From Nitrospinota bacterium (GTDB taxonomy: Bacteria > Nitrospinota_A > UBA7883 > JACRLM01), in assembly GCA_016208975.1 (NCBI GenBank), contig JACQXA010000001.1, positions 251,834 through 315,833 of the forward strand: a stretch of 64,000 nt of DNA, in the 5' to 3' direction. The position numbers and the translations under genes were made by a program. Positions 1 to 11,885 of this stretch are shown here, one piece after another (positions within the stretch are counted from its first letter, which is position 1; each line of letters begins with the position of its first letter). The notes beneath the pieces were generated by a model. It did not search any database and was not told the DNA's origin. It worked only from the letters and a program-made list of their open reading frames with translations.

Positions 1-115
1 GAGGGCCCTCATACATAAGCTCCATGCAGTCTCCGGTTTGCGCCTCCCATTCGTAATAGTGGCGGAGCAGGCGGCGTAGATTTAGAAGGCTGTTTATTTT
101 TTCAGAGCCGGACAT
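1..115 (-). CDS. Unrecognised protein, N-terminal fragment (cut by window edge)
   Basis: An ATG at 115 opens a frame that stays open to the left edge, giving 38 codons beginning MSGSEKINSLLNLRRLLRHY. It overlaps the last 14 bases of the upstream radical SAM gene, the same coupling seen throughout this operon, so it is probably the next cistron. The visible part is basic and helical-looking with no recognisable motif. No function can be given from 38 residues; the overlap is the main support that it is real. Confidence 0.5.
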   Translation of the reverse strand, partial: MSGSEKINSLLNLRRLLRHYYEWEAQTGDCMELMYEGP

Positions 116-1163
116 AGTACATGTATTTCTTGCCGCACAAACCAGTGGCCTCGTTGCATGAGCTGTCGAACTGGCAATCATCGCAAATGCCGCCGCAATG
201 TTTTTTGTACATGGAGCAAAGGATGCGGCACCCGCCACCGCAGATATCCTGTTTCTCGCAACTCATACATCCGGGAAGCCCGTGGAATGACACATCCCGC
301 ACAGAGCTGAAACCCGGCCCATCGCGCCATATCTGGGGCAAACGCCGTTTGCGCAGGTTGCCGCACCTGTTTTCCGGAAAGATCAATGGATTGCATGGCG
401 TCACATCGCCATTGGGGCGGATGAAACAGTATGTGCGGCCCGGGATGCATCCGGCATGGGGATAAAAGAAACCGTCGCTGTTGGACTGGCGCCTGGCCCC
501 ATCGGCCACGCCACGGGTTAGTTCCGCCTCCTCGGCCACAAGATTCCGGAATCCGCTTTCGGTAAGGTACAGATCCGCCCGGTTCTGCCGCCCGGCGCCG
601 GTTGGCACAAACCTCATGTATAAAATCTCCCTGGCCCCGGAGCCCGCCACTTCCATCCGCGTTTTTTGCATGATGGGGGCGTTCCTGGCGGTTAACGTCA
701 TGGAGGCTATTACATATATCCCCGCGTCGGTCAGCTGACGTATCGCCGCCAGCGCCTTGGCGTGGTTGCCATGCCCGCGCATGTAGTTGTGGCTCTCCTC
801 GTCTCCGTCAACGCTCACCTCCACGCATTCCACACCCAGTTCTTTAAGCCGTTGGGCTTTTTCCTGGCGCATGAGGACGCCGTTGGTGGTGAGTGTCACG
901 CCAAGGCCGCTTTTTCTGGCCCCTTCTACGATAGTGAGAAAATCCTTCCGGAAAAATGGCTCGCCCCCGCCGAAATAAATCTCGTGCGCTCCCATGGCCC
1001 CGGCGTCGGATACTATCTCCAGCCACTCCGCCGTACTCATCTCGTCGAACCTTAATGCGTCGTCGTCATACTTGGGAGACGATGCGAAACAATGCCTGCA
1101 CTTGATGTTGCACCGGTAGGTCACCGCCGTCACTAGATTGAAAGGGGCGTTCATCGCGAACAT
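102..1163 (-). CDS. Radical SAM/SPASM domain protein (fifth of the cluster)
   Basis: 353 residues. The radical SAM signature CxxxCxxC lies at C18, C22 and C25 and is followed by a YFGGGEP motif, so it should bind a SAM-coordinating [4Fe-4S] cluster. The C-terminal ~110 residues are very cysteine-rich (GCIPGRTYC, TPC, GCMSC, CGGGCRILC and further cysteines near the end). This fits a SPASM domain with auxiliary clusters, with more cysteines than usual. SPASM proteins typically modify peptides or act in heme pathways (NirJ/AhbD type). It overlaps the nucleotidyltransferase gene by 13 bases. An alternative ATG at 1154 would give an ATGA overlap, but a GGG-rich ribosome site fits 1163 better. The substrate is unknown; the family call is firm. 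Confidence 0.9.
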   Translation of the reverse strand: MFAMNAPFNLVTAVTYRCNIKCRHCFASSPKYDDDALRFDEMSTAEWLEIVSDAGAMGAHEIYFGGGEPFFRKDFLTIVEGARKSGLGVTLTTNGVLMRQEKAQRLKELGVECVEVSVDGDEESHNYMRGHGNHAKALAAIRQLTDAGIYVIASMTLTARNAPIMQKTRMEVAGSGAREILYMRFVPTGAGRQNRADLYLTESGFRNLVAEEAELTRGVADGARRQSNSDGFFYPHAGCIPGRTYCFIRPNGDVTPCNPLIFPENRCGNLRKRRLPQIWRDGPGFSSVRDVSFHGLPGCMSCEKQDICGGGCRILCSMYKKHCGGICDDCQFDSSCNEATGLCGKKYMYYVRL

Positions 1164-1885
1164 GGCATTCGCCCTTTCGCCCAGATATCCTCATAGGCCG
1201 TCAACACATGGGCCAACAGAGTTTCCGGTGAATCGCTCACCGGCTCTTTCAGCCCCATTCTTTTCCTTATGTCCAGCAGATGATGGAACACCCAGGTGTT
1301 CATGGCGGGGAACGCCTCCTCCACCCCGGCGACAGTCTCGGCCCGGGATGAGCGGAGCCTGCCGGTAATCCCTAAAAGAAGCGCCTTGCAGGACTTGAAA
1401 AGCATTTCGTCCAGAAACCGTAACGCCACCGGCGGGTTCATCCTGCCGATCCTTGTGACGGCCCCTCTCAAGTTCCGGAGCCCCACGCCAGCAACCCTCA
1501 TGCTGTCTTCCACCAGAACCGGTTCAGGATGCATGAACGTAACTTGCCCGCCGTATATCAGGTTCGCCACGCTGATCTCTTTTAGAAGGAACGGGTTAAC
1601 AGGACCCAGCGGGTCGTCAATCTCAGTTACAGTCGCCATTGTGATGTCTATCTGGCTGAACGGGTACACTTCACCGGCGGCGTTCTTCAGCTTCGCGCCG
1701 CCCAGCGCCAGTTCCAACCCCGACAGGCCCGGCTCGAACAGCGCGAATATATCCAGATCGCTGTAACCGGGAATAAAATCGCCATACGAAAGGCTTCCGA
1801 ACAGATAAACTGAAACCAGCCCATCCAGGCGTTCATCCAAAAGCTGGCGGAAACGGTCAGTTTCCGCAATAAGGATCCGCCCCAT
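1151..1885 (-). CDS. Pol-beta-type nucleotidyltransferase
   Basis: 244 residues from the ATG at 1885, which has a GGGAGGGGG ribosome site just upstream. A longer frame to 1927 would overlap the previous gene by 71 bases and is less likely. The N-terminal domain has the nucleotidyltransferase signature GSLSYGD followed by SDLDIFAL, giving the two metal-binding aspartates. The C-terminal half is helical and resembles the HEPN-like domain of aminoglycoside or MNT-type transferases. It would move a nucleotide onto an unknown acceptor. It lies between two radical SAM genes and overlaps both. Its place in the operon suggests it activates or tags an intermediate or product; that is inference. Confidence 0.82.
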   Translation of the reverse strand: MGRILIAETDRFRQLLDERLDGLVSVYLFGSLSYGDFIPGYSDLDIFALFEPGLSGLELALGGAKLKNAAGEVYPFSQIDITMATVTEIDDPLGPVNPFLLKEISVANLIYGGQVTFMHPEPVLVEDSMRVAGVGLRNLRGAVTRIGRMNPPVALRFLDEMLFKSCKALLLGITGRLRSSRAETVAGVEEAFPAMNTWVFHHLLDIRKRMGLKEPVSDSPETLLAHVLTAYEDIWAKGRMPCSR

Positions 1886-2867
1886 CAAGCCCCCTCCCTT
1901 CCAACATAGCATGCGCCCTGCATCCACCGCATAACCTCATCCAGCGGCATGATGAACATGGCCCTTGGCTTTCATTTCTGCGCCGGAGCCGCCACAAAAG
2001 TGGTGAATCCATCCAGATACGCCACAGGGATGTTTCAAAAACGTTGCCCAATGTTTCAGGAATCTTTCTACAAGGGTAAACGGAGCCATCCTCCATCACC
2101 GTAACGCCGCCCACCCCCGCAGAACAGCCTTTCATGGCGAAGCCCGCTTTTTGTGGAAATTCTTTTAAACCCCGCGCCCCCGCCAGGGCCACGTAAAACA
2201 ATGGGTCGTTCATCCACACCATAAACCCGTCAACCCGTTTCCTCGCCATCCGCTCCACCACCCTGCCCCATTCAGCGCCGCTCAACCCTGGCATGGCCCC
2301 GGCTCCCATGGCTATGTGCCGATGGAGACCCAGCGGCAGATTTTCTTCCCGCGCCCACCCGGTGAAATTCTCAAGCTCATCGGCGTTTACCGCCGTTACA
2401 GTGGCGGCAATGGAAACTTTTACGCCAGATGACCGCAAGACCGATATTGCGCTCATTGCCCGGGCATAACTGCCCTTGCCCCGGATGGCGTCGTTAACCG
2501 GTTTAAAACCTTCCAAAGATATCTGAACGGACTCCACCCCCAGCCCGCGAAGCCTTGCGGCGATATCTCTATCTATTCCCGCCCCGGATGAAAGCAGGCT
2601 CCACCGGCTATTGGTTGAATTGATAACCTCCGCCAGTTCCCATATCCCCGCGTACGCCAGCGGATCGCCCCCGGTTACGTTGAACGTGAGCTGGCCGAAA
2701 TGGGGTTCAAAATCCACCACCGTCTGGCGGATAAATGATTCCCAGGCGGAAACTGGCGCGTCAGCTCCTTCCCAGCCATCCTGATAGCAATGGGCGCACC
2801 GGGACTGGCATTTGCGAGTCAGGTGCGTCTGTATAAAAAAGCCCATATATCCCCCCGCCCCGTTCAT
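1857..2867 (-). CDS. Radical SAM/SPASM domain protein (fourth of the cluster)
   Basis: 336 residues with CxxxCxxC at C20, C24 and C27 and a TGGDP motif for SAM binding. The C-terminus reads as a SPASM domain: GCSAG, VYPC, then CSSCRWMRLCGGCRAHA and a final DPYC. This arrangement is close to that of the heme-related NirJ/AhbD type and of peptide-modifying SPASM proteins. A second possible start (MGFF, at 2846) has a better GGGGGG ribosome site, so the true protein may be 7 residues shorter. A 45-base gap to the previous gene is the largest in the operon. The fold is certain; the substrate is unknown. Confidence 0.9.
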   Translation of the reverse strand: MNGAGGYMGFFIQTHLTRKCQSRCAHCYQDGWEGADAPVSAWESFIRQTVVDFEPHFGQLTFNVTGGDPLAYAGIWELAEVINSTNSRWSLLSSGAGIDRDIAARLRGLGVESVQISLEGFKPVNDAIRGKGSYARAMSAISVLRSSGVKVSIAATVTAVNADELENFTGWAREENLPLGLHRHIAMGAGAMPGLSGAEWGRVVERMARKRVDGFMVWMNDPLFYVALAGARGLKEFPQKAGFAMKGCSAGVGGVTVMEDGSVYPCRKIPETLGNVFETSLWRIWMDSPLLWRLRRRNESQGPCSSCRWMRLCGGCRAHAMLEGRGLDGADPYCGN

Positions 2868-2912: not shown

Positions 2913-3803
2913 TTACTGATAATAACAATAAAACATGCAACCGGGGCATTGGCCCTCGCCAGCGCCGGATGACGCCGCTTCAAAGCCCCGGGATTGGATC
3001 GCCTTATTCAATCCATCCTCAATCGCGTTGGCTGTGGCGGCGAAGGCCCAGCACGGGCTAACGCCGCCATTTGGGAATAAGGTGAATATACGTCCGCCTG
3101 CTTTGCATTTCCCATGTCGGCGGAATCCCTTCTCTACATAATCAGCGGCGGCCTGGTAATATTCAGCCCCGTTACAGTTCAGCGGATGGTTTAAGCGGGC
3201 AAGATTTTTCAGGGTCGACGCCATTTTGGCGAATTGTCCAGCGTTCCGTTGCCATGTCTTGGCTCCCCCGAATGCGGGAGCCCACGGCTGAACCCCCACG
3301 CTATGAACCCCCAGCGTTTCCGCCAGCTCGAATACTGCGTTTATTTCATCCATGTTTGCTGGCATTAACGTGAAAGAAAGGCTCACCCTTGATGAGGGCT
3401 GGCTTTCACGTATTCGCTTGATTCCCTCTACCGCCCGTTTCCAGGCCCCTTTAACACCCCGGATACGGTCATGTACTCTTTCGTTTCCGTCTATGGATAC
3501 TGATATGTCTTGTATCCCCTCAAGTTCCTCCGCTCTTTTCGCTGTAACAGTGGTTGCGTTTGTACTTAGGCGTATTTCCAGCCCCTCTTCCAGCATGGGC
3601 GCAACCACAGCGCGCAAATCTTTTCGGGCAAATGGCTCTCCGCCGGTGACATAGACCACCTTTACGCCCAGCTCCGCCAATTGCAGGGCCATGCCCTTCA
3701 CGGCGCTTATAGGGAAATCCTCACCATCCGGCCCGCTATGGGCGCACATGGAGCATTTGAGGGTGCATCTGGAAGTGATCATAAAGATCGCTTTTCGCGC
3801 CAT
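2913..3803 (-). CDS. Radical SAM protein with short cysteine-rich C-terminus (third of the cluster)
   Basis: 296 residues, the shortest radical SAM enzyme of the cluster. CxxxCxxC is at C13, C17 and C20, followed by VTGGEPF. The C-terminal region carries a reduced cysteine set (KCKAGG, SPCWAF, CPGCMFYC), more like a Twitch or truncated SPASM domain than a full one. It may therefore bind only one auxiliary cluster. It follows the 477-residue radical SAM gene by 20 bases and is co-oriented with the rest of the operon. Its substrate cannot be told from sequence. Confidence 0.88.
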   Translation of the reverse strand: MARKAIFMITSRCTLKCSMCAHSGPDGEDFPISAVKGMALQLAELGVKVVYVTGGEPFARKDLRAVVAPMLEEGLEIRLSTNATTVTAKRAEELEGIQDISVSIDGNERVHDRIRGVKGAWKRAVEGIKRIRESQPSSRVSLSFTLMPANMDEINAVFELAETLGVHSVGVQPWAPAFGGAKTWQRNAGQFAKMASTLKNLARLNHPLNCNGAEYYQAAADYVEKGFRRHGKCKAGGRIFTLFPNGGVSPCWAFAATANAIEDGLNKAIQSRGFEAASSGAGEGQCPGCMFYCYYQ

Positions 3804-3823: not shown

Positions 3824-5257
3824 TCATCCACCGGGGCAGGTAGCCACAGCATCGGAAAACTGGCTGTAAGCGCCGCCACCCTTCCGGGCAAGATAAGCCA
3901 CCATAAGCGGAGCGGTTTCCACGGTTGGCTCCATACGCCACTGGCCGCCTTGAGCCATGCGCAGGGCGAATCGGCGGATTTGGCATGGCCACCCTTCAAC
4001 GGGTGGGCCTTTTGTGGCAAGCAGGCCCAGGAAGTGGGCGAATATGTTTTTTTTCAGTTCACACCGGGCAGGGTCTGTAGGGCTGTTATCAATCCGTTGC
4101 GGATAGGTGACCCTGGCGGGGCAATCGCCGGCGCAATGCCATTTGAGCGCGCAGGATGCGCAATGGGGAAGGTTTTCTACAACCCGTTTCCCCAGGGCGT
4201 TCAACAGCGCGCCATGCCACATCAATCCTTCTCCGGTCACGTCCCCCACGCCAAAAACCCCTGCCATTGGATGGGCGCGGGAACATGCCTCCAGGCATCT
4301 GCTCACCAACCCGTCATGGGTCACATACACGTTTCCCGTTACGGCCCCGCAGTAGGCTTCCGTCATGGCCTGCGGCGACACTCCTGGGAAACTCACCGCC
4401 AGCCCCAGTTCCCATGCCGTGTCCAGCGCCTCGCGGAACCGGGCCTGCGCGCGTTCATTATGGTCTATGCCAGCGGGCCCAGCCCGCCCGGCGGACACCA
4501 CGGGGCCAAGATGTATCTCCCGGGTCTTGGCCGCCCCGGCGAAAAACCTTATCGTATCCGGCAGGCGGTCCAGCGTATCCCCCGCCACTGTGGACACGAT
4601 GGCGTAATTTTCAAACCCCGCCTCATCGAACGCCTGGAGGGTTTTCATCACCCTATCGAAAGACCCGGCCCCGGTGGATGTTTTCCGGTGAGCGTTATGT
4701 ATCTGTTCCGGCCCGTCCAGCGCCAGCGATACCAGTTGGAACTTTTCCATTATCTCGTCCCGGATTTTTTGGCTGAACAGACCGTTGGTGGCTATGCCGA
4801 ACCCAACCGAGGCGCCGATCTCCGCCGCCCGGAGTCTGGCGCGTTCCATGACTGATTGGATCAACCCCCATGCCTGGGTGGGTTCGCCGCCTCCATGGAA
4901 ATAAAGCTCTATCCGCTCCGCCCCGCTCTTTTCAGCCGATTGCGCCACATGGTCCACAGCCCAATTGGCCAGCCATTCAGGCATGGCCAGGTCCGCCTCG
5001 CCGCCGTTGGCGTAACAATAAGAGCAACGAAGGTTGCATCTCGTGGTCGGAATCAAGGTGGCCCGTTCAGCCCGAAGTGTTTCCGAACGCTCTGGCGCCG
5101 GGGCCAGCGGGGCTACGCTTCGCGCAAACCAGTTGGCCGCCTCTATCTGAACAGAGATTGGGACGGTTGAAGAAACGGACAATATTCCGCCAGAAATGGG
5201 CTCGTAAAAGACAACGCCCCTTTCCCATTCCATCCGGAACACATTCTTATGGCTCAT
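3824..5257 (-). CDS. Radical SAM/SPASM protein with N-terminal extension (second of the cluster)
   Basis: 477 residues, the longest enzyme here. About 65 residues precede the radical SAM core (C74, C78, C81, then FHGGGEP), a layout seen in peptide-modifying SPASM maturases and anaerobic sulfatase maturase-like enzymes. The FHGGGEP form of the SAM motif also fits that group. SPASM cysteines follow (AYCGAV, SRCLEAC, HCASCALKWHCAGDC, ARC). An ~80-residue tail after the SPASM domain is rich in small residues and ends CPGG. The gene overlaps the kinase gene by 11 bases. Whether the N-terminal extension is a peptide-recognition (RRE-like) domain needs a structure prediction. Confidence 0.88.
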   Translation of the reverse strand: MSHKNVFRMEWERGVVFYEPISGGILSVSSTVPISVQIEAANWFARSVAPLAPAPERSETLRAERATLIPTTRCNLRCSYCYANGGEADLAMPEWLANWAVDHVAQSAEKSGAERIELYFHGGGEPTQAWGLIQSVMERARLRAAEIGASVGFGIATNGLFSQKIRDEIMEKFQLVSLALDGPEQIHNAHRKTSTGAGSFDRVMKTLQAFDEAGFENYAIVSTVAGDTLDRLPDTIRFFAGAAKTREIHLGPVVSAGRAGPAGIDHNERAQARFREALDTAWELGLAVSFPGVSPQAMTEAYCGAVTGNVYVTHDGLVSRCLEACSRAHPMAGVFGVGDVTGEGLMWHGALLNALGKRVVENLPHCASCALKWHCAGDCPARVTYPQRIDNSPTDPARCELKKNIFAHFLGLLATKGPPVEGWPCQIRRFALRMAQGGQWRMEPTVETAPLMVAYLARKGGGAYSQFSDAVATCPGG

Positions 5258-5780
5258 GCGCCGCTACCACTTTCGTGTCTGTGTTAAGAGCCGCTTCCAC
5301 AAGCCGGTAAAGCTCTTCATGAATTGGGCCGTGGTTTGCTATTGCCACATCCGCCGGCCATTGAGCCCATTCGGTTTCGCTGGAATGGATGTCGTCCACC
5401 CCCAAAGAAAACTCCTGCCCGCGTTCCGAAAGCCTGCGGACGCATTCCGCCAGTGGAGCCTCCACCCGCCAGAAAACAAAGCCCCTCGCCCGTAACAGCT
5501 CCATATCCGGTTTGAATCGCGCCGCGTCCACAACCACTGGCCGCCCAGCCGGGACGCGCCGCAACGCCGCGGACATCCAGACCGACTCATCCAGCGCGCG
5601 CATGGCGTCGGTCACCTGGTTCATGACGGTTTTCGACTGGGAGCCGAACAGTATCCCGCACACCTCCCGGCACACGGTTCCTGTGCTGGCGATGGCATAG
5701 CGGTAATGTTCCGCCAGGTACCCGGCCACCGTGGTTTTCCCCGCGCCGGAGCGGCCCGTGAGGGCGATGTTTGGATACAT
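5247..5780 (-). CDS. Small P-loop kinase of the nucleoside/dephospho-CoA kinase type
   Basis: 177 residues beginning with a clear Walker A motif, GRSGAGKT at residues 9-16, after a short beta strand. VVVDAARF near residue 90 fits the strand and acidic residue of a kinase core, and R-rich segments after it (VRRLSERG) resemble a lid. Length and layout match small-molecule kinases (AMP/CMP kinase, dephospho-CoA kinase), but no specific family signature is visible. It begins 9 bases after the Cys-rich peptide gene and overlaps the next radical SAM gene, so it belongs to the operon. It probably phosphorylates a small molecule or peptide in the same pathway; this is inference. Confidence 0.75.
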   Translation of the reverse strand: MYPNIALTGRSGAGKTTVAGYLAEHYRYAIASTGTVCREVCGILFGSQSKTVMNQVTDAMRALDESVWMSAALRRVPAGRPVVVDAARFKPDMELLRARGFVFWRVEAPLAECVRRLSERGQEFSLGVDDIHSSETEWAQWPADVAIANHGPIHEELYRLVEAALNTDTKVVAAHEP

Positions 5781-5789
5781 CGTTGATTA

Positions 5790-5975
5790 TTAATCCGCCT
5801 TTTGCGGCTGGTCCATTTCCGGCCCGGTGGAAGCGCACACCTTGCAATGGCAATGGGTGCAAAGGAAATCGGCCTCCTCGCGGCCCGACATGTCTGTCTT
5901 CAAATATCCGAGAAGCTCTTTTAGCTTGGCCCTGTCATCATCGGTGAGGCCGTTCAGTTTGTTATCGTTTCCCAT
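5790..5975 (-). CDS. 61-residue peptide with C-terminal CxxCxCxxC motif (candidate precursor or metal-binding peptide)
   Basis: 61 residues. The first ~35 are charged and helical-looking, like a leader (GLTDDDRAKLKELLGYLKTD). The last third holds C39, C42, C44 and C47 interleaved with H41 and H43, then a short hydrophilic tail (ASTGPEMDQPQKAD). The ATG at 5975 overlaps the DUF362 gene by 22 bases, and the kinase gene starts 9 bases after its stop, so it is translated within the operon. A leader-like part plus a compact Cys core beside five radical SAM enzymes fits a RiPP precursor. A small zinc or iron-sulfur protein is the main alternative. I do not recognise the family. Confidence 0.7.
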   Translation of the reverse strand: MGNDNKLNGLTDDDRAKLKELLGYLKTDMSGREEADFLCTHCHCKVCASTGPEMDQPQKAD

Positions 5976-6997
5976 ACGATCTCCTTCATTCCGAAGAATT
6001 TTTCACCACTTGCCATCTGGTTGCTCCAAAGTTTCCAAACGCCGCTCTCCAGCGGTTTTTCACGCTCCATAAGCTCCACGCTGGCCCTGTCCGCCATGAA
6101 GGGGTCGGCGGCGATTACAAAACCGGCGTCAGTGTAAACAGGGGCGTGGGTGAACGAGGCGCAATCGCACTGGGGGGTTACATCCACCACACCGTTAATG
6201 AAAACCGAGCGGCGCCCGGCCAGAAACGCGGCGGCGGCCTCGGTAAGCCTGTGCGAAAAGTTTTCCAGCTGGCCGTCGTCCAGGCTGTAAACCCCTTGCC
6301 TGCATGGCCCCATGCAATGGCAACAACCGGTGCAGGCTGTGTCCAGCCGCCGTATTGCTCCATCAACCAATTCCAAAGCCCCATGCCCACACGTTTTCAG
6401 ACATTCGCCGCAGGCGGAGCATTTGGAGGTATCCATCAACGGCTTGGTGGCCCCATGTATGGCGGCTTTACCCGCCGAAGACATGAGCCCCATCCCAACG
6501 TTCTTTATGGCCCCAGCCACTCCCGTGAACCCGTGAAGGGTTATGTGGGAAAGAACAGCCATGTGCCGCACACCCTGTAAAGACCCGGCGCCCATGTAAG
6601 CCGGGCCTCCGTTCACCGGGGGCAGGGCTACGCCAAACTCCCCCCGCATGCCGTCGGAGATTATCAACGGGCACCCAATGGAGTCTGCGGTGAAACCATG
6701 CGCCGAGGCGGTCTCCAGATAACCCACCGCCGTGCTTCGGGAGCCTTTGTACAAAACCACGGTGTCTGTCGCGAAAGGTTTCATACCGGCGTTTCTGGCC
6801 GCATCCGCCACTGCCCGCACATAAAGAGGCCTTAAATATCTTGTGGCGCCCCTTTCCCCGAAATGACACTTGATGGCCAAAAGTTCGCCGGGAGCGCCCC
6901 AAGAACGGAATACCAGCTCCAGCTTTTTCCTGATGATGTCCACGGTGGATACATACGGCTGGGTCGTGGCCGGTATGTGGCTTAAATTTACGGTCAC
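5954..6997 (-). CDS. DUF362 protein with 4Fe-4S ferredoxin motifs
   Basis: 347 residues from a GTG at 6997 that overlaps the preceding stop by four bases. The N-terminal ~195 residues have the DUF362 layout (KCHFGERGATRYLRP, then ITLHGFTGVAGAIKNVGMG). Near residues 200-240 there are two cysteine clusters, CSACGECLKTC and CTGCCHCMGPC, as in a 2[4Fe-4S] ferredoxin, though the second one is modified by an extra Cys. A further CDC follows near residue 280. DUF362 proteins are poorly understood but are often electron carriers next to redox enzymes. Here the likely job is to supply electrons to the radical SAM enzymes of the operon. The domain call is firm; the role is inferred. Confidence 0.88.
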   Translation of the reverse strand: MTVNLSHIPATTQPYVSTVDIIRKKLELVFRSWGAPGELLAIKCHFGERGATRYLRPLYVRAVADAARNAGMKPFATDTVVLYKGSRSTAVGYLETASAHGFTADSIGCPLIISDGMRGEFGVALPPVNGGPAYMGAGSLQGVRHMAVLSHITLHGFTGVAGAIKNVGMGLMSSAGKAAIHGATKPLMDTSKCSACGECLKTCGHGALELVDGAIRRLDTACTGCCHCMGPCRQGVYSLDDGQLENFSHRLTEAAAAFLAGRRSVFINGVVDVTPQCDCASFTHAPVYTDAGFVIAADPFMADRASVELMEREKPLESGVWKLWSNQMASGEKFFGMKEIVWETITN

Positions 6998-8049
6998 GGA
7001 GCTTCCCTTCTTTTATTTAGGACCTGGCACATGGGGTCGCGGCCAAAAAAAGACCCTGTGGCGATGGCGGCGCGGGCGTGGCATCCACCGCAACATTCGG
7101 CCAGATGGGCGCAATCGCCGCAGGCCTCACGGTACGTCTCCGGATCCCTCATCTTTTGCATGAACCCGCTGGCGCGCCATACCTGGGCGAACCTGCCGCC
7201 GGTGACATCTTCCCCCTCCCCGGCGAACTCCGTGAACACCGGGCAATGAAACATGCGCCCCTCTTTGGTGATGTGGCAGAACGACCGGCTGGAGGGGCAA
7301 CCAAGGGTTTTCTCGCCGCTCATGGCGGCTTCGTACAAATTGTCCAGCGCCAACGCTGTTCCGTTATTTGGGGAGATCAACCTTATCTGCTCGCAGGTCT
7401 TTTTGATTATCTCTGGCGAAAGGTCGCCAAAATCCTTCCCGGCGGCGCGGCCTTTGGCCAGCATGGGCTCCACCTTGAACTGGTATGCCCCCAACCCGGA
7501 GCTCAGTTGATAGAGCGCGGCCACCTCCTCCACATTAGAGGAGTCTATGGTCATGTTCACCGTTACCCGGATCCCCCAGGCCACGGCTGAGGCGATATTC
7601 TCCGTCACCTTGTCAAAACATCCGCGGCCCCTTCTTTTATCGTGGGCATCCCTCAAACCGTCCAGGCTAATCTGCGCGCTCCCAAGCCCGGCTTTTTTCA
7701 GCAGGCGCGCCACGTTGGCGGTAAGTAAAACGCCGTTGGTGTCCAGATGGATATTGGCGAATTTTCTACGGTGAGCGGTTTTTATAAAGGTTTCAATATC
7801 CTTTCGGCAAAGAGGCTCACCACCTGTGAAACATATGGCTGTCCGCCCTGGATACAAAACCGAACGTATTATTTCTATGATCGATCCGGTGGAAAGCTCC
7901 GCCCGGCTGTCACGATAGGCGCCAGAGGCTGGAGGGTTGTAGCAATGGGCGCATCGCAGGTTGCAACGGTGGGTAACCTCGATACACACCACGGCAGGCT
8001 CCCGCTTCGCCTCCGCAAACGTTAACACCGAGCCGAGAAAAGGATCCAT
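6994..8049 (-). CDS. Radical SAM/SPASM domain protein (first gene of the cluster)
   Basis: 351 residues if started at the ATG at 8049. An upstream in-frame start at 8118 would lie within the predicted promoter, so the shorter form is preferred. CxxxCxxC falls at about C29, C33 and C36, followed by FTGGEPL. The C-terminus has SPASM cysteines (GCPSSRSFC, FHCPVF, CGDCAHLAECCGGCHARA, DPMC), the arrangement found in NirJ/AhbD-like heme enzymes and peptide maturases. It is first in the operon and shares four bases with the DUF362 start. No heme d1 genes are near, so a heme role is not supported by context. Confidence 0.9.
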   Translation of the reverse strand: MDPFLGSVLTFAEAKREPAVVCIEVTHRCNLRCAHCYNPPASGAYRDSRAELSTGSIIEIIRSVLYPGRTAICFTGGEPLCRKDIETFIKTAHRRKFANIHLDTNGVLLTANVARLLKKAGLGSAQISLDGLRDAHDKRRGRGCFDKVTENIASAVAWGIRVTVNMTIDSSNVEEVAALYQLSSGLGAYQFKVEPMLAKGRAAGKDFGDLSPEIIKKTCEQIRLISPNNGTALALDNLYEAAMSGEKTLGCPSSRSFCHITKEGRMFHCPVFTEFAGEGEDVTGGRFAQVWRASGFMQKMRDPETYREACGDCAHLAECCGGCHARAAIATGSFFGRDPMCQVLNKRREAP

Positions 8050-8103
8050 CCGCCAAAAAGCGCCTCCCGCCAAACATTTGAGCCTCACGCTCCAGCAGGT
8101 ATA

Positions 8104-8132
8104 AATATACAATACCATTTTTATTTATACAA
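8104..8132 (-). promoter_or_regulatory. Predicted sigma70-type promoter of the radical SAM operon
   Basis: Read on the minus strand, TTGTAT and TATATT are separated by 17 bases. They lie about 55 bases upstream of the chosen start of the first radical SAM gene. The -10 matches consensus at 5 of 6 positions and the -35 at 4 of 6. It supports the shorter start at 8049. Prediction only. Confidence 0.5.
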
Positions 8133-8913: not shown

Positions 8914-8939
8914 ATAACAAACGTTTGAAGGGGCTCACC

Positions 8940-9950
8940 ATGGAGGAGATGAAACCGCCTCCCGGGGCCCGCCCGGCCCTTTATTGGGAGCCGATGGACA
9001 AAGGGCGCGTGCGATGCCGCCTTTGTCCGTTCAACTGCGTTCTTTCCGAATGCAAAACGGGAATTTGCGCCGGAAAGACCAACGTGGGGGGCATACTTTA
9101 CGCCGTAAATTACGCATTCACCACTTCCATCAACCTCGACCCGATGGAAAAAAAGCCTCTCTATCATTTTTACCCCGGCTCTTCCATCCTCTCCATCGGC
9201 CCTAACGGATGTAACATGGCTTGCGACTTCTGCCAGAACTATTACATATCCCAGCAATCGGCCCCGACTGAGCGGCTTATGCCTGAAGAGGCGGCGGCGC
9301 TGGCGGTCTCTTACGGATCTGTGGGACTGGCGTACACCTATGCCGAACCGCTTATCTGGTACGAGTATGTGCTGGACACCTCAAAGGAGGTTCGCAAGGC
9401 CGGGCTCAAGAATGTGCTGGTGACCAACGGCATGATAAACCCGGAGCCGATGATGGAACTTTTGCCCTACACCGACGCCATGAATATAGACATAAAATCA
9501 ATGGATCCGGCGTTTTACAGAAAGGTCTGCCACGGTATGCTGGAGCCTGTGCTGGAGACGGTGAAACTGACTTTCGCCCGGACCCACGTGGAGATAACCA
9601 ATCTGGTCATCCCCGGGTTCAACGACAGCGATGAGATGTTCCACCAGCTTACCGATTTCCTGGCGGACTTGAGCCCCTACATACCACTGCATTTTTCCAG
9701 GTACCATCCGGATTACAAGCTCCACGCTCCGCCTACGCCGTTGGATACGCTGTTGAGGGCGGCCCGTATCGCCTCCGAAAAGCTGAAGTACGTATATATA
9801 GGGAACGTGCATACGGACACCCATAACCAGACCAAATGCCCGTTCTGCGGGAAGATTGTTATTGAACGGGGCGGGTTCAGCGTTTACAGGGTTTCTTTGA
9901 CGAAGGGTAAATGCAACTTCTGCGGGGGAGACACCGGGGTGATAATGTGA
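8940..9950 (+). CDS. amrS: AmmeMemoRadiSam-system radical SAM enzyme
   Basis: 336 residues from the ATG at 8940, which follows a GAAGGGG ribosome site; a TTG at 8925 is also in frame. The N-terminus has a cysteine cluster (CRLCPFNC, then C and GIC) followed by the radical SAM motif CNMACDFC. This is the layout of the PflA-like AmrS family. Two CxxC pairs at the C-terminus (CPFCGK, CNFCGG) form a zinc ribbon present in some members. AmrS is normally encoded with Memo and AMMECR1 proteins; neither is next to it here. The family call is strong; the reaction is not settled. Confidence 0.88.
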   Translation: MEEMKPPPGARPALYWEPMDKGRVRCRLCPFNCVLSECKTGICAGKTNVGGILYAVNYAFTTSINLDPMEKKPLYHFYPGSSILSIGPNGCNMACDFCQNYYISQQSAPTERLMPEEAAALAVSYGSVGLAYTYAEPLIWYEYVLDTSKEVRKAGLKNVLVTNGMINPEPMMELLPYTDAMNIDIKSMDPAFYRKVCHGMLEPVLETVKLTFARTHVEITNLVIPGFNDSDEMFHQLTDFLADLSPYIPLHFSRYHPDYKLHAPPTPLDTLLRAARIASEKLKYVYIGNVHTDTHNQTKCPFCGKIVIERGGFSVYRVSLTKGKCNFCGGDTGVIM

Positions 9951-9958
9951 CCCGGGCG

Positions 9959-11239
9959 CTACACCGCGTCTTCCTTCATTTCCGCATACACTTGGCGTTC
10001 AGTGGTGTCGCGCGGCTCCTTGTTCATAACACGAGGCAATCTTTTATACGTCAGCGCGATTAAGAGCGCCGCCGTGAGCGACAATAGCAAAACCTGCCCC
10101 GTGAGAGCCGCGTATATCCAGTTCAACCCGCGCCATTTTTCGATGGCCGCCACCTCGTAAACCGCTATGGAGCCCAGCCCGAAGGTAAAGGTGAACTTTA
10201 TGCCGTACCCTGTGGACAGCCAGCGGCGGGGCAGGAATTTTGTCACCAGGCTGTTCTCTATAGGTTGCATCCCCAGCGAGAAGAAAAGGAACAACCCCGT
10301 GACGACATATAAAGGCATGTCGGTCAAAAAGAACATGGCCGCCACGAAAGGCAAAGCCATGGTTTGAACCATGAAATAGGCTTTGCGCAGGTCCATGGCG
10401 TCGGCTATCCTGCCCCCCACATACTGCCCGGCGATGGTGAACATATACAGGGTGGATACCAGCAGGCCCGCCGCGCCGGAACCGGCGTTTGCCCCGGTGG
10501 ACGGGGTGAAGCTGGCGATAATACCCACCAGCTCGCTGGCCCGCATCTCGAAATAAGCGGGCAACGCCGTTAGGTTCGCCCGGTACGTGAAACCGCCAAG
10601 CGTCATGGCGAAACAGAGGATGGCGAAATACAGCCAATATTCTTTTTTATGGGTGTCTTTCCCTTTCACAGCCTCAATTTCATGATGGGGGCGTTCATCA
10701 AATGAAAAGAGGCCTCCCAGGAAAAACCCGGCGATGCCCAGCATACCGGCGATGATATACACCCATCGCCAGTCGAAAAACAGCAGGGTCAGCCCGGCCA
10801 GCAAAGGGGCGGAAGCCTCGCCCAGCGCCCCGAAAATGCCGTTTATGCCGTGGGCTTTCCCCTGCTCCTCTATCTCCTTGGCGATCAATCCCAGCCCCAC
10901 GGGATGATATAGTCCGCAGAATAGCCCTATCACCGCCAGGGCCATGGTGAAATCGGTAACACTGGTGGACATCCCGGCCAATAAAGAGCCTATCCCCACC
11001 CCAAACATGCATATTTTGAGCAAGGCGGATTTGGACCAGAGATCGGCCACATAACCCGCAGGAAGGGCCAGGGCGCCGTACAGGAAATACATCATGAAAC
11101 TCAGCGGGAACACCTCTGCGATAGAGAGCCCCATTTCCCGGGAAAAGGGCATGACGATGGCCGGGAATATGAGGATGTTCATATGTATGAGGTAGTGGGC
11201 CATGCTGGCCAGGGCCACAATCCTTTTTTCCCGCGGCAC
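9959..11239 (-). CDS. Major facilitator superfamily transporter
   Basis: 426 residues with about twelve hydrophobic segments in two halves separated by a charged loop near residue 195 (DERPHHEIEAVKGKDTHKK). It resembles fosmidomycin-resistance-type and sugar-phosphate-type MFS proteins but has no substrate-defining motif. It starts with GTG at 11239 and converges on the AmrS gene, the stops being 8 bases apart. The substrate is unknown. Confidence 0.8.
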   Translation of the reverse strand: MPREKRIVALASMAHYLIHMNILIFPAIVMPFSREMGLSIAEVFPLSFMMYFLYGALALPAGYVADLWSKSALLKICMFGVGIGSLLAGMSTSVTDFTMALAVIGLFCGLYHPVGLGLIAKEIEEQGKAHGINGIFGALGEASAPLLAGLTLLFFDWRWVYIIAGMLGIAGFFLGGLFSFDERPHHEIEAVKGKDTHKKEYWLYFAILCFAMTLGGFTYRANLTALPAYFEMRASELVGIIASFTPSTGANAGSGAAGLLVSTLYMFTIAGQYVGGRIADAMDLRKAYFMVQTMALPFVAAMFFLTDMPLYVVTGLFLFFSLGMQPIENSLVTKFLPRRWLSTGYGIKFTFTFGLGSIAVYEVAAIEKWRGLNWIYAALTGQVLLLSLTAALLIALTYKRLPRVMNKEPRDTTERQVYAEMKEDAV

Positions 11240-11334
11240 TTTCGATATAACTCCAAACAGCTTTTATAGATATGGTAAAGGAACGCGGGGGATTTATCAA
11301 AGCACCCCAGCCGAGGGTAAGCGGACGGGTGCGC

Positions 11335-11885
11335 TACCCGCGTCCCCGTGGTCGCTGACCACGGTTACCGCGCCATGGAAATACCGGGGTCGGGCGACCC
11401 CGGCGAAGCGAAACCGCGGCGACAGCGGGTCAATTATCAAAACAGAGTGGCGGACCTTTTTCATAAATGTTGTCATGCCGGACTTGATCCGGCATCCGGG
11501 CCTTGATTCTTTACCCGCTTCCCCGTGGTCGCTGACCACGGTTACCGCGCCATGGAAATACTGGGGTCGGGCGACCCCGGCGAAGCGAAACCGCGGCGAC
11601 AGCAGGTCAATTATCAAAACAGGAGAGGCGGACCTTTTTCATAAATGTTGTCATGCCGGACTTGATCCGGCATCCGGGCCTTGATTCTTTACCCGCTTCC
11701 CCGTGGTCGAGAGGCGGACCTTTTTCATAAATGTTGTCATGCCGGACTTGATCCGGCATCCGGGCCTTGATTCTTTACCCGCTTCCCCGTGGTCGCTGAC
11801 CACGGTTACCGCGCCATGGAAATACCGGGGTCGGGCGACCCCGGCGAAGCTAAACCGCGGCGACAGCGCGAAGCGAACTATTTAG
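11335..11885. repeat. Imperfect tandem array of ~178-bp palindromic intergenic repeats
   Basis: A unit of about 178 bases recurs. Its CCCCGTGGTCG landmark lies at 11344, 11521, 11699 and 11785. The third copy is shortened to about 86 bases by a clean internal deletion joining GTGGTCG to AGAGGCGG. Each full unit contains three palindromes: GCCGGA-CTTGA-TCCGGC, GTGGTC-GCT-GACCAC and GGGGTC-GGGC-GACCCC. The first landmark GTCATGCCGG lies at 11472, 11650 and 11736. The units are too long and lack spacers for a CRISPR. This is a mobile intergenic repeat that has duplicated in place. Confidence 0.88.

Follow-up and report, generated by a model that had tools for sequence, protein, structure and literature searches.

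An orphan cysteine/histidine peptide gene inside a radical SAM operon of a Nitrospinota bacterium as a candidate substrate of SPASM-type enzymes

The closest described systems to the locus analyzed here are the ranthipeptide pairs CteA/CteB (SCIFF) and PapA/PapB. For PapB, a SPASM ranthipeptide maturase, the accessible part of one study reports that the substrate thiol is bound by an auxiliary cluster and that an electron is passed on between turnovers via redox partners, a step that is required (PMC10470005). A canonical RRE is made of three helices and three strands, and a shorter domain of one helix and three strands on a CteB-like enzyme has been called RRE-like (PMC10352776). One review recounts that, at the time ranthipeptides were discovered, nearly 5000 radical SAM proteins located next to Cys-rich precursors had been retrieved (PMC11002830). 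Another kind of Cys-rich target, the Cys-tailed TIGR04222 proteins, has already been proposed as a substrate of MNIO enzymes; in the accessible part of that paper, radical SAM is mentioned only in the reference list, two times (PMC12452194).

Here, we describe an operon with six radical SAM enzymes and a single small Cys/His-rich peptide. The window, a stretch of 64,000 nucleotides from a Nitrospinota contig, carries nine genes of a 16-gene run that lies entirely on the minus strand; seven further genes lie to the left of it, in the adjoining locus L026. Within the window, the order is rSAM374, DUF362 protein, peptide, P-loop kinase, rSAM477, rSAM296, rSAM336, nucleotidyltransferase, and rSAM353. 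It continues in L026 with a methyltransferase, an AMMECR1 protein, a glycosyltransferase, a polysaccharide-deacetylase-like protein, a membrane protein, rSAM509, and a PHP-like protein, the last named by eye. An earlier, sequence-only reading had placed the peptide inside a radical SAM operon, and its position in this same-strand run with six radical enzymes bears that out (Table 1). All six are above the Pfam cut-off for Radical_SAM. For the SPASM domain, rSAM353, rSAM336, and rSAM509 are over the cut-off, rSAM296 and rSAM477 are under it, and rSAM374 has no Pfam SPASM match at an E value of 0.1.

Table 1. Features of the operon and of the peptide. Positions are those of the window unless the adjoining locus L026 or residue numbers are given.
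Feature	Position	Strand	Evidence or remark
rSAM374, AhbD/NirJ2-like radical SAM, first gene of the operon	6994..8118	-	PF04055 1.2e-26
DUF362 protein with ferredoxin-like Cys motifs	5954..6997	-	PF04015 1.4e-25
61-aa peptide gene	5790..5975	-	ORF with ribosome site and gene-typical coding score; matches no family
Peptide, charged leader-like N-terminus	residues 1-36		
Peptide, Cys/His core FLCTHCHCKVC	residues 37-47		
Peptide, tail	residues 48-61		
Small P-loop kinase (AAA_18)	5247..5780	-	PF13238 4.9e-9
rSAM477, radical SAM/SPASM maturase-like	3824..5257	-	CteB is the nearest solved fold; recognition-like N-terminal domain is short
rSAM296, radical SAM	2913..3803	-	PF04055 8.4e-20; SPASM 14.9 bits, below cut-off
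rSAM336, radical SAM/SPASM, ACGX/SbtM-related	1857..2867	-	SPASM 34.6 bits
Nucleotidyltransferase (NTP_transf_2)	1151..1927	-	PF01909 1.5e-6
rSAM353, radical SAM/SPASM, mycofactocin-maturase-like	102..1163	-	Operon goes on to the left of the window (L026)
rSAM509	L026:9640-11169		160-residue N-terminal extension, PqqD-like by eye

The peptide ORF is read on the minus strand from 5975 to 5790 (translation MGNDNKLNGLTDDDRAKLKELLGYLKTDMSGREEADFLCTHCHCKVCASTGPEMDQPQKAD); the sequence-only reading had located it correctly and left the strand unstated. Direct reading of the translation places cysteines at positions 39, 42, 44, and 47 and histidines at 41 and 43, exactly the core residues that had been claimed. 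The peptide had also been described as ending in CxxCxCxxC. The motif is present, and the peptide alone has it among the 470 window ORFs of at least 40 aa, but the word "ending" is loose, since 14 more residues (ASTGPEMDQPQKAD) follow C47. The proposed translational coupling to the DUF362 gene is made plausible by a 22-nt overlap between the 3′ end of that gene and the start of the peptide ORF, but the peptide also has a ribosome site of its own (GAAGGAGATCGT-ATG), the best, by eye, of nine starts compared. The kinase starts 9 nt past the peptide stop, as reported earlier.

Is such a short reading frame a real gene? With codon usage trained on 43 long ORFs of the window, the ORF scored 0.34 bits per codon, compared with 0.38 (SD, 0.18) for in-frame chunks, and just 0.65% of out-of-frame chunks scored above it (the peptide exceeds >99.3% of them). 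Its GC3 of 0.68 is likewise gene typical (0.70). Without the peptide gene, the operon would contain a gap of 173 nt (5781 to 5953), whereas its other junctions are overlaps or gaps of at most 45 nt. Because the junctions are this tight with the starts used, a second small gene would not fit, and no small gene other than the peptide was seen in the 16-gene run. The 61-aa ORF is a genuine gene. That it arose as a chance frame, an idea in line with the failure to find any homologue, is extremely unlikely in view of the good ribosome site, the gene-typical coding score and GC3, and the gap that it fills.

Relatives of the peptide were sought in several ways. A protein search of 97 genomes, its own included, returned 24 other places with E values from 0.003 to 0.8, and nothing convincing came from the 96 other genomes, of which 23 belong to the same phylum. 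Seven of these places (L005, L006, L009, L013, L017, L019, and L020) were unrelated by eye when their ORFs were read and hold small zinc-finger-like ORFs, other genes, or stop-containing frames; the remaining places were judged on score and frame length alone. The pattern CxHCHCxxC occurred at 9 places in 9 of 289 genomes, compared with 3 for a reversed control. Among the eight matches besides the peptide, seven were chance-looking frames and one was an unrelated 145-aa protein that looks like a GFA-type enzyme. The peptide had no match in Pfam (E value of 10), NCBIfam (E value of 0.1), or the PDB sequences (E value of 10), no relatives among the viral contigs searched, and nothing but chance matches (E value of 5 or worse) in the plasmids searched. 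By these comparisons, the peptide is claimed by none of the families searched. The sequence-only reading had named two observations that would weigh against a substrate, homologues without radical SAM neighbors and an ordinary zinc-binding protein; no homologue was found in the 96 other genomes, and no zinc family was matched in Pfam, NCBIfam, or the PDB. Young orphan genes are common, and a small peptide without a detectable homologue could also have a regulatory or structural role in the operon that has nothing to do with radical chemistry. A Cys/His core in such a neighborhood would then be a coincidence, and we consider this explanation improbable.

We then turn to the enzymes that could act on the peptide. 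The best NCBIfam match of rSAM477 was PapB (NF047865; 114.9 bits, under the cut-off of 340), followed by HxsB and by the SCIFF maturase (TIGR03974; 84.8 bits, under the cut-off of 425), HxsB being under its cut-off as well; the Pfam SPASM score of 15.2 bits is also under the cut-off (21.5). A model of rSAM477 built from its alignment (pLDDT of 81) had as its best fold match CteB (5wgg; Z score of 34.5, RMSD of 3.2 over 390 residues, 20% identity), with anaerobic sulfatase maturases, ChlB, and TigE next, and 5wgg was also the best PDB sequence match of the alignment profile (3.5e-54). No relative was detected at 1e-20 in 23 other genomes of the phylum. A pattern-based scan of a genome collection of 84,980 species yielded relatives at 46 loci, with 26 to 36% identity in the best segment. 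In an alignment of 42 sequences (that of the window and 41 others, with L069 to L073, 5 of the 46 loci, left out of the alignment and the tree), rSAM477 keeps ten of ten invariant cysteines.

A small CxC-rich ORF adjoins the enzyme in 22 of these 46 loci (L028, L029, L030, L032, L033, L035 to L038, L042, L043, L048, L050 to L052, L054, L058, L059, L062, L068, L070, and L071). A neighbor was counted when it had 30 to 200 aa on the same strand with at least two CxC and at least four cysteines and either started no more than 500 nt after the enzyme or ended no more than 500 nt before it, with 40 nt of overlap allowed. Under the same rule, neighbors were found at 1 of 35 loci of rSAM353 and rSAM509 relatives (31 distinct places, as four pairs overlap) and at 0 of 29 DUF362 loci, and the background of such ORFs was 0.03 per kb and strand. 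Because the rule was set after inspection of the loci, these controls weigh more than the raw count. Two loci with short downstream sequence (L066, 18 nt; L061, 472 nt) were counted as misses, and peptide-like neighbors recognized by eye at L063 and L069 were kept out of the 22. The neighbor peptides have lengths of 56 to 181 aa and two or more CxC each, and without exception (22 of 22) they lie downstream, starting between −22 and +193 nt from the end of the enzyme. Many of them have a KPDD/PNDR-like start, and they come from several phyla; the enzymes beside them are of the SPASM type, mostly with HGGGEPT and KWHCAGDC motifs. Seven of the peptides were scanned, with no NCBIfam match. In the tree, sequences from peptide-linked loci group together (6 changes versus 14 in shuffles). 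rSAM477 itself sits outside the peptide-linked clade, attached to an unresolved fork by a branch of 2.76, and the tree, which carries a long-branch warning, does not fix its position. The window peptide is encoded upstream of rSAM477, from which the kinase gene separates it, and has one CxC; against a profile of eight neighbor peptides it scored 4.3 bits, which is no detectable similarity. The relatives of rSAM477 also suggest that CxC-repeat peptides form a widespread set, which may overlap with one already published in earlier surveys, since the review reports nearly 5000 radical SAM proteins beside Cys-rich precursors (PMC11002830).

How might rSAM477 recognize a leader? Between the alignment column of residue 8 and its first cluster cysteine, rSAM477 has 66 residues; among the 36 relatives measured, the median is 85.5 and the shortest value is 72. 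In the model, the N-terminal domain is predicted to be beta-beta-beta-alpha followed by a loop, ∼20 residues short of its relatives. Such a short domain may still bind a leader, because a comparable short, RRE-like one has been published (PMC10352776, in the part available). No PqqD family match was obtained among the operon proteins scanned. The N-terminal extension of rSAM509 had no PqqD match in Pfam or NCBIfam either, and a single-sequence model of that enzyme (pLDDT of 38) is too poor to judge its N terminus.

The second enzyme whose relatives are informative is rSAM336. Its best family is the ACGX enzyme TIGR04340 (140.5 bits, under the cut-off of 400), followed by SbtM. Relatives at 1e-35 were present in 5 of 240 other genomes, and at four of the five loci (L128, L129, L130, and L132) the enzyme adjoins a CxxC-rich tail or peptide; these four represent two independent lineages only. 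Genomes G007, G008, and G011 belong to one genus, in the same order as the organism of the window. In each, a TIGR04222 protein with a Cys tail such as GCSGCSGCGGGCGGGCGGCG lies directly upstream of the rSAM336-like enzyme. The copy in G008 scored 93.6 bits against a cut-off of 43, and the other copies are named by similarity. These TIGR04222-like membrane proteins with Cys/Gly tails are at L128:7174-9930, L130:1-2468, and L129:900-3024. A nucleotidyltransferase follows the rSAM336-like enzyme in G008 and G011 (L128 and L130), with a weak match only in G007 (L129). In the other lineage, G024 (L132:3036-4481), a SPASM enzyme, a PqqD protein (PF05402, 3e-9), and a 46-aa peptide that ends in CRQCSGCHGCR are arranged in tandem. 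That peptide has no NCBIfam precursor match, and the tandem genes are plausibly a RiPP cassette. Genome G135 has two tandem rSAM336-like enzymes, and no Cys-rich peptide was seen there. TIGR04222 is absent from the window's own genome. A literature search found nothing that combined three of the terms radical SAM, SPASM, TIGR04340, and ACGX.

Because relatives of both rSAM477 and rSAM336 adjoin Cys-rich targets, the peptide is probably a substrate of these enzymes. We put the probability at roughly 50% that it is an orphan precursor or scaffold that rSAM477 and/or rSAM336 modify at its Cys core. The claim of the sequence-only reading that it is a SPASM-enzyme substrate therefore gains from the neighbors of these relatives, with controls of 1 of 35 and 0 of 29, and from the CteB-like model. 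It loses from the short recognition domain of rSAM477, the odd position of the gene, the 14-residue tail, and the fact that no exporter or peptidase was recognized. In the mechanism that we propose, the charged N-terminal half, presumably helical, would serve as the leader, and the core CTHCHCKVC would be modified by at least one SPASM enzyme of the operon, most likely rSAM477 and/or rSAM336. A radical attack would take place at a residue near a cysteine, whose sulfur would be held by an auxiliary iron-sulfur cluster, and the outcome would be thioether or other Cys crosslinks, the type of bond being presumed. Electrons would be supplied by the DUF362 protein, a possible donor by inference. Roles for the other four radical enzymes are likewise inferred. 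A literature search found nothing on DUF362 with radical SAM and nothing that joined radical SAM, Cys-rich, precursor peptide, and DUF362.

The main rival is that the peptide is a small metal-binding protein that holds zinc, copper, or iron-sulfur at its four cysteines and two histidines and acts, unmodified, as a carrier, redox partner, or regulator. The core is dense in metal ligands, with all six within nine residues, a tail of 14 residues after it is unusual for a C-terminal RiPP core, and the neighboring DUF362 protein and radical enzymes are iron-sulfur proteins. Yet the peptide matches no Pfam, NCBIfam, or PDB family, and its gene position suits a precursor equally well. Four cysteines in nine residues would also leave little space for a classical zinc ribbon. 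On balance, we view the metal-binding protein as a somewhat unlikely explanation.

What kind of product would a modified peptide yield? No exporter or peptidase was recognized by Pfam or NCBIfam in 15 of the 16 operon proteins (all but the PHP-like one), which favors an intracellular product; the 475-aa membrane protein of the operon has no family match. The presence of six radical enzymes, a kinase, a nucleotidyltransferase, a methyltransferase, an AMMECR1 protein, and a glycosyltransferase, with no recognized exporter, makes a peptide-derived cofactor or metal ligand more likely than a secreted bacteriocin. These same tailoring genes, and the same failure to recognize an exporter or peptidase, are also consistent with a peptide scaffold or carrier. 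In that case, the radical enzymes, kinase, nucleotidyltransferase, and methyltransferase would assemble a small molecule on the peptide or join one to it, and the cysteines would be points of attachment instead of crosslink donors. In support of such a carrier, the glycosyltransferase is MftF-like (114.1 bits versus a cut-off of 280) and rSAM353 is mycofactocin-maturase-like (139.5 bits versus a cut-off of 265), but both resemblances are far below cut-off, and no hallmark such as a peptide aminoacyl-tRNA ligase was recognized in the proteins scanned. We regard the carrier as doubtful. Returning to the peptide as a modified precursor, a fuller version of that reading is a new kind of multiply modified peptide, in which one 61-residue precursor is worked serially by several of the six radical SAM enzymes together with the kinase, nucleotidyltransferase, methyltransferase, and glycosyltransferase to give an intracellular cofactor or metal ligand, the CteB-like enzyme having a cut-down recognition domain. 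This scheme is speculative, and we think it unlikely as a whole.

The operon as a set is seen in this genome alone among the genomes and genes sampled by sequence search. The rest of the operon was found at 0 of the 46 loci of rSAM477 relatives, where matches were limited to generic radical SAM similarity and one DUF362 gene ∼6.5 kb away (L070). No operon partners were present at 29 DUF362 loci and six kinase or nucleotidyltransferase loci, save for a methyltransferase-like match at L086 and L089. Taken singly, the genes differ in how often relatives were found: DUF362 in 74 of 288 other genomes (29 to 40% identity), the kinase in 5 of 288 (at 1e-6), the nucleotidyltransferase in 1 of 288 (direct relative at 1e-6), rSAM353 in 16 and rSAM509 in 47 of 116 (at 1e-25, both with 26 to 35% identity), and rSAM296 in none of 240 (at 1e-30). 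For rSAM374, the TIGR04545 score was 147.3 bits, under the cut-off of 500.

Three further observations concern the surroundings. The AMMECR1-domain protein is encoded within the radical SAM operon itself (L026:14535-15269), and a literature search found nothing on AMMECR1 with radical SAM and RiPP. At 8925-9950 of the window, and divergent from the operon, lies a separate radical SAM gene that may encode an AmmeMemoRadiSam-type enzyme. Downstream of an MFS-like transporter gene, the ORF list alone shows a series of nearly identical repeat units (translated reading MPDLIRHPGLDS) at positions 11202-11885 of the window.

If the peptide is a substrate, the operon would offer a small experimental system where a single short Cys/His core may be shared by several radical enzymes. 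It would then bear on how radical enzymes with a cut-down recognition domain choose their substrates and on how many products of Cys-rich peptides remain uncharacterized.

Compared with the ranthipeptide systems, the operon is alike in containing a short Cys-containing peptide, and rSAM477 is alike in its CteB fold and in having PapB as its best NCBIfam match. Unlike the ranthipeptide maturases, rSAM477 is far under the curated cut-offs and its recognition domain is shortened. The repeats of PapA are Cys-X3-Asp, as given in the available part of PMC9413430, whereas the window peptide has no such repeats, and the window operon has five further radical enzymes. With respect to the HGGGEPT/KWHCAGDC SPASM set, rSAM477 is a distant member that keeps all invariant cysteines; most peptides of that set exceed the one described here in length, and they differ from it further in having CxC repeats and, in all 22 cases, in starting close to where the enzyme gene ends. 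The ACGX/SbtM SPASM enzymes (TIGR04340 and TIGR04082) offer the other parallel, in that rSAM336 relatives adjoin CxxC-rich targets. rSAM336 departs from the ACGX/SbtM/TIGR04222 systems both in its score, 140.5 bits versus 400, and in belonging to a genome without TIGR04222.
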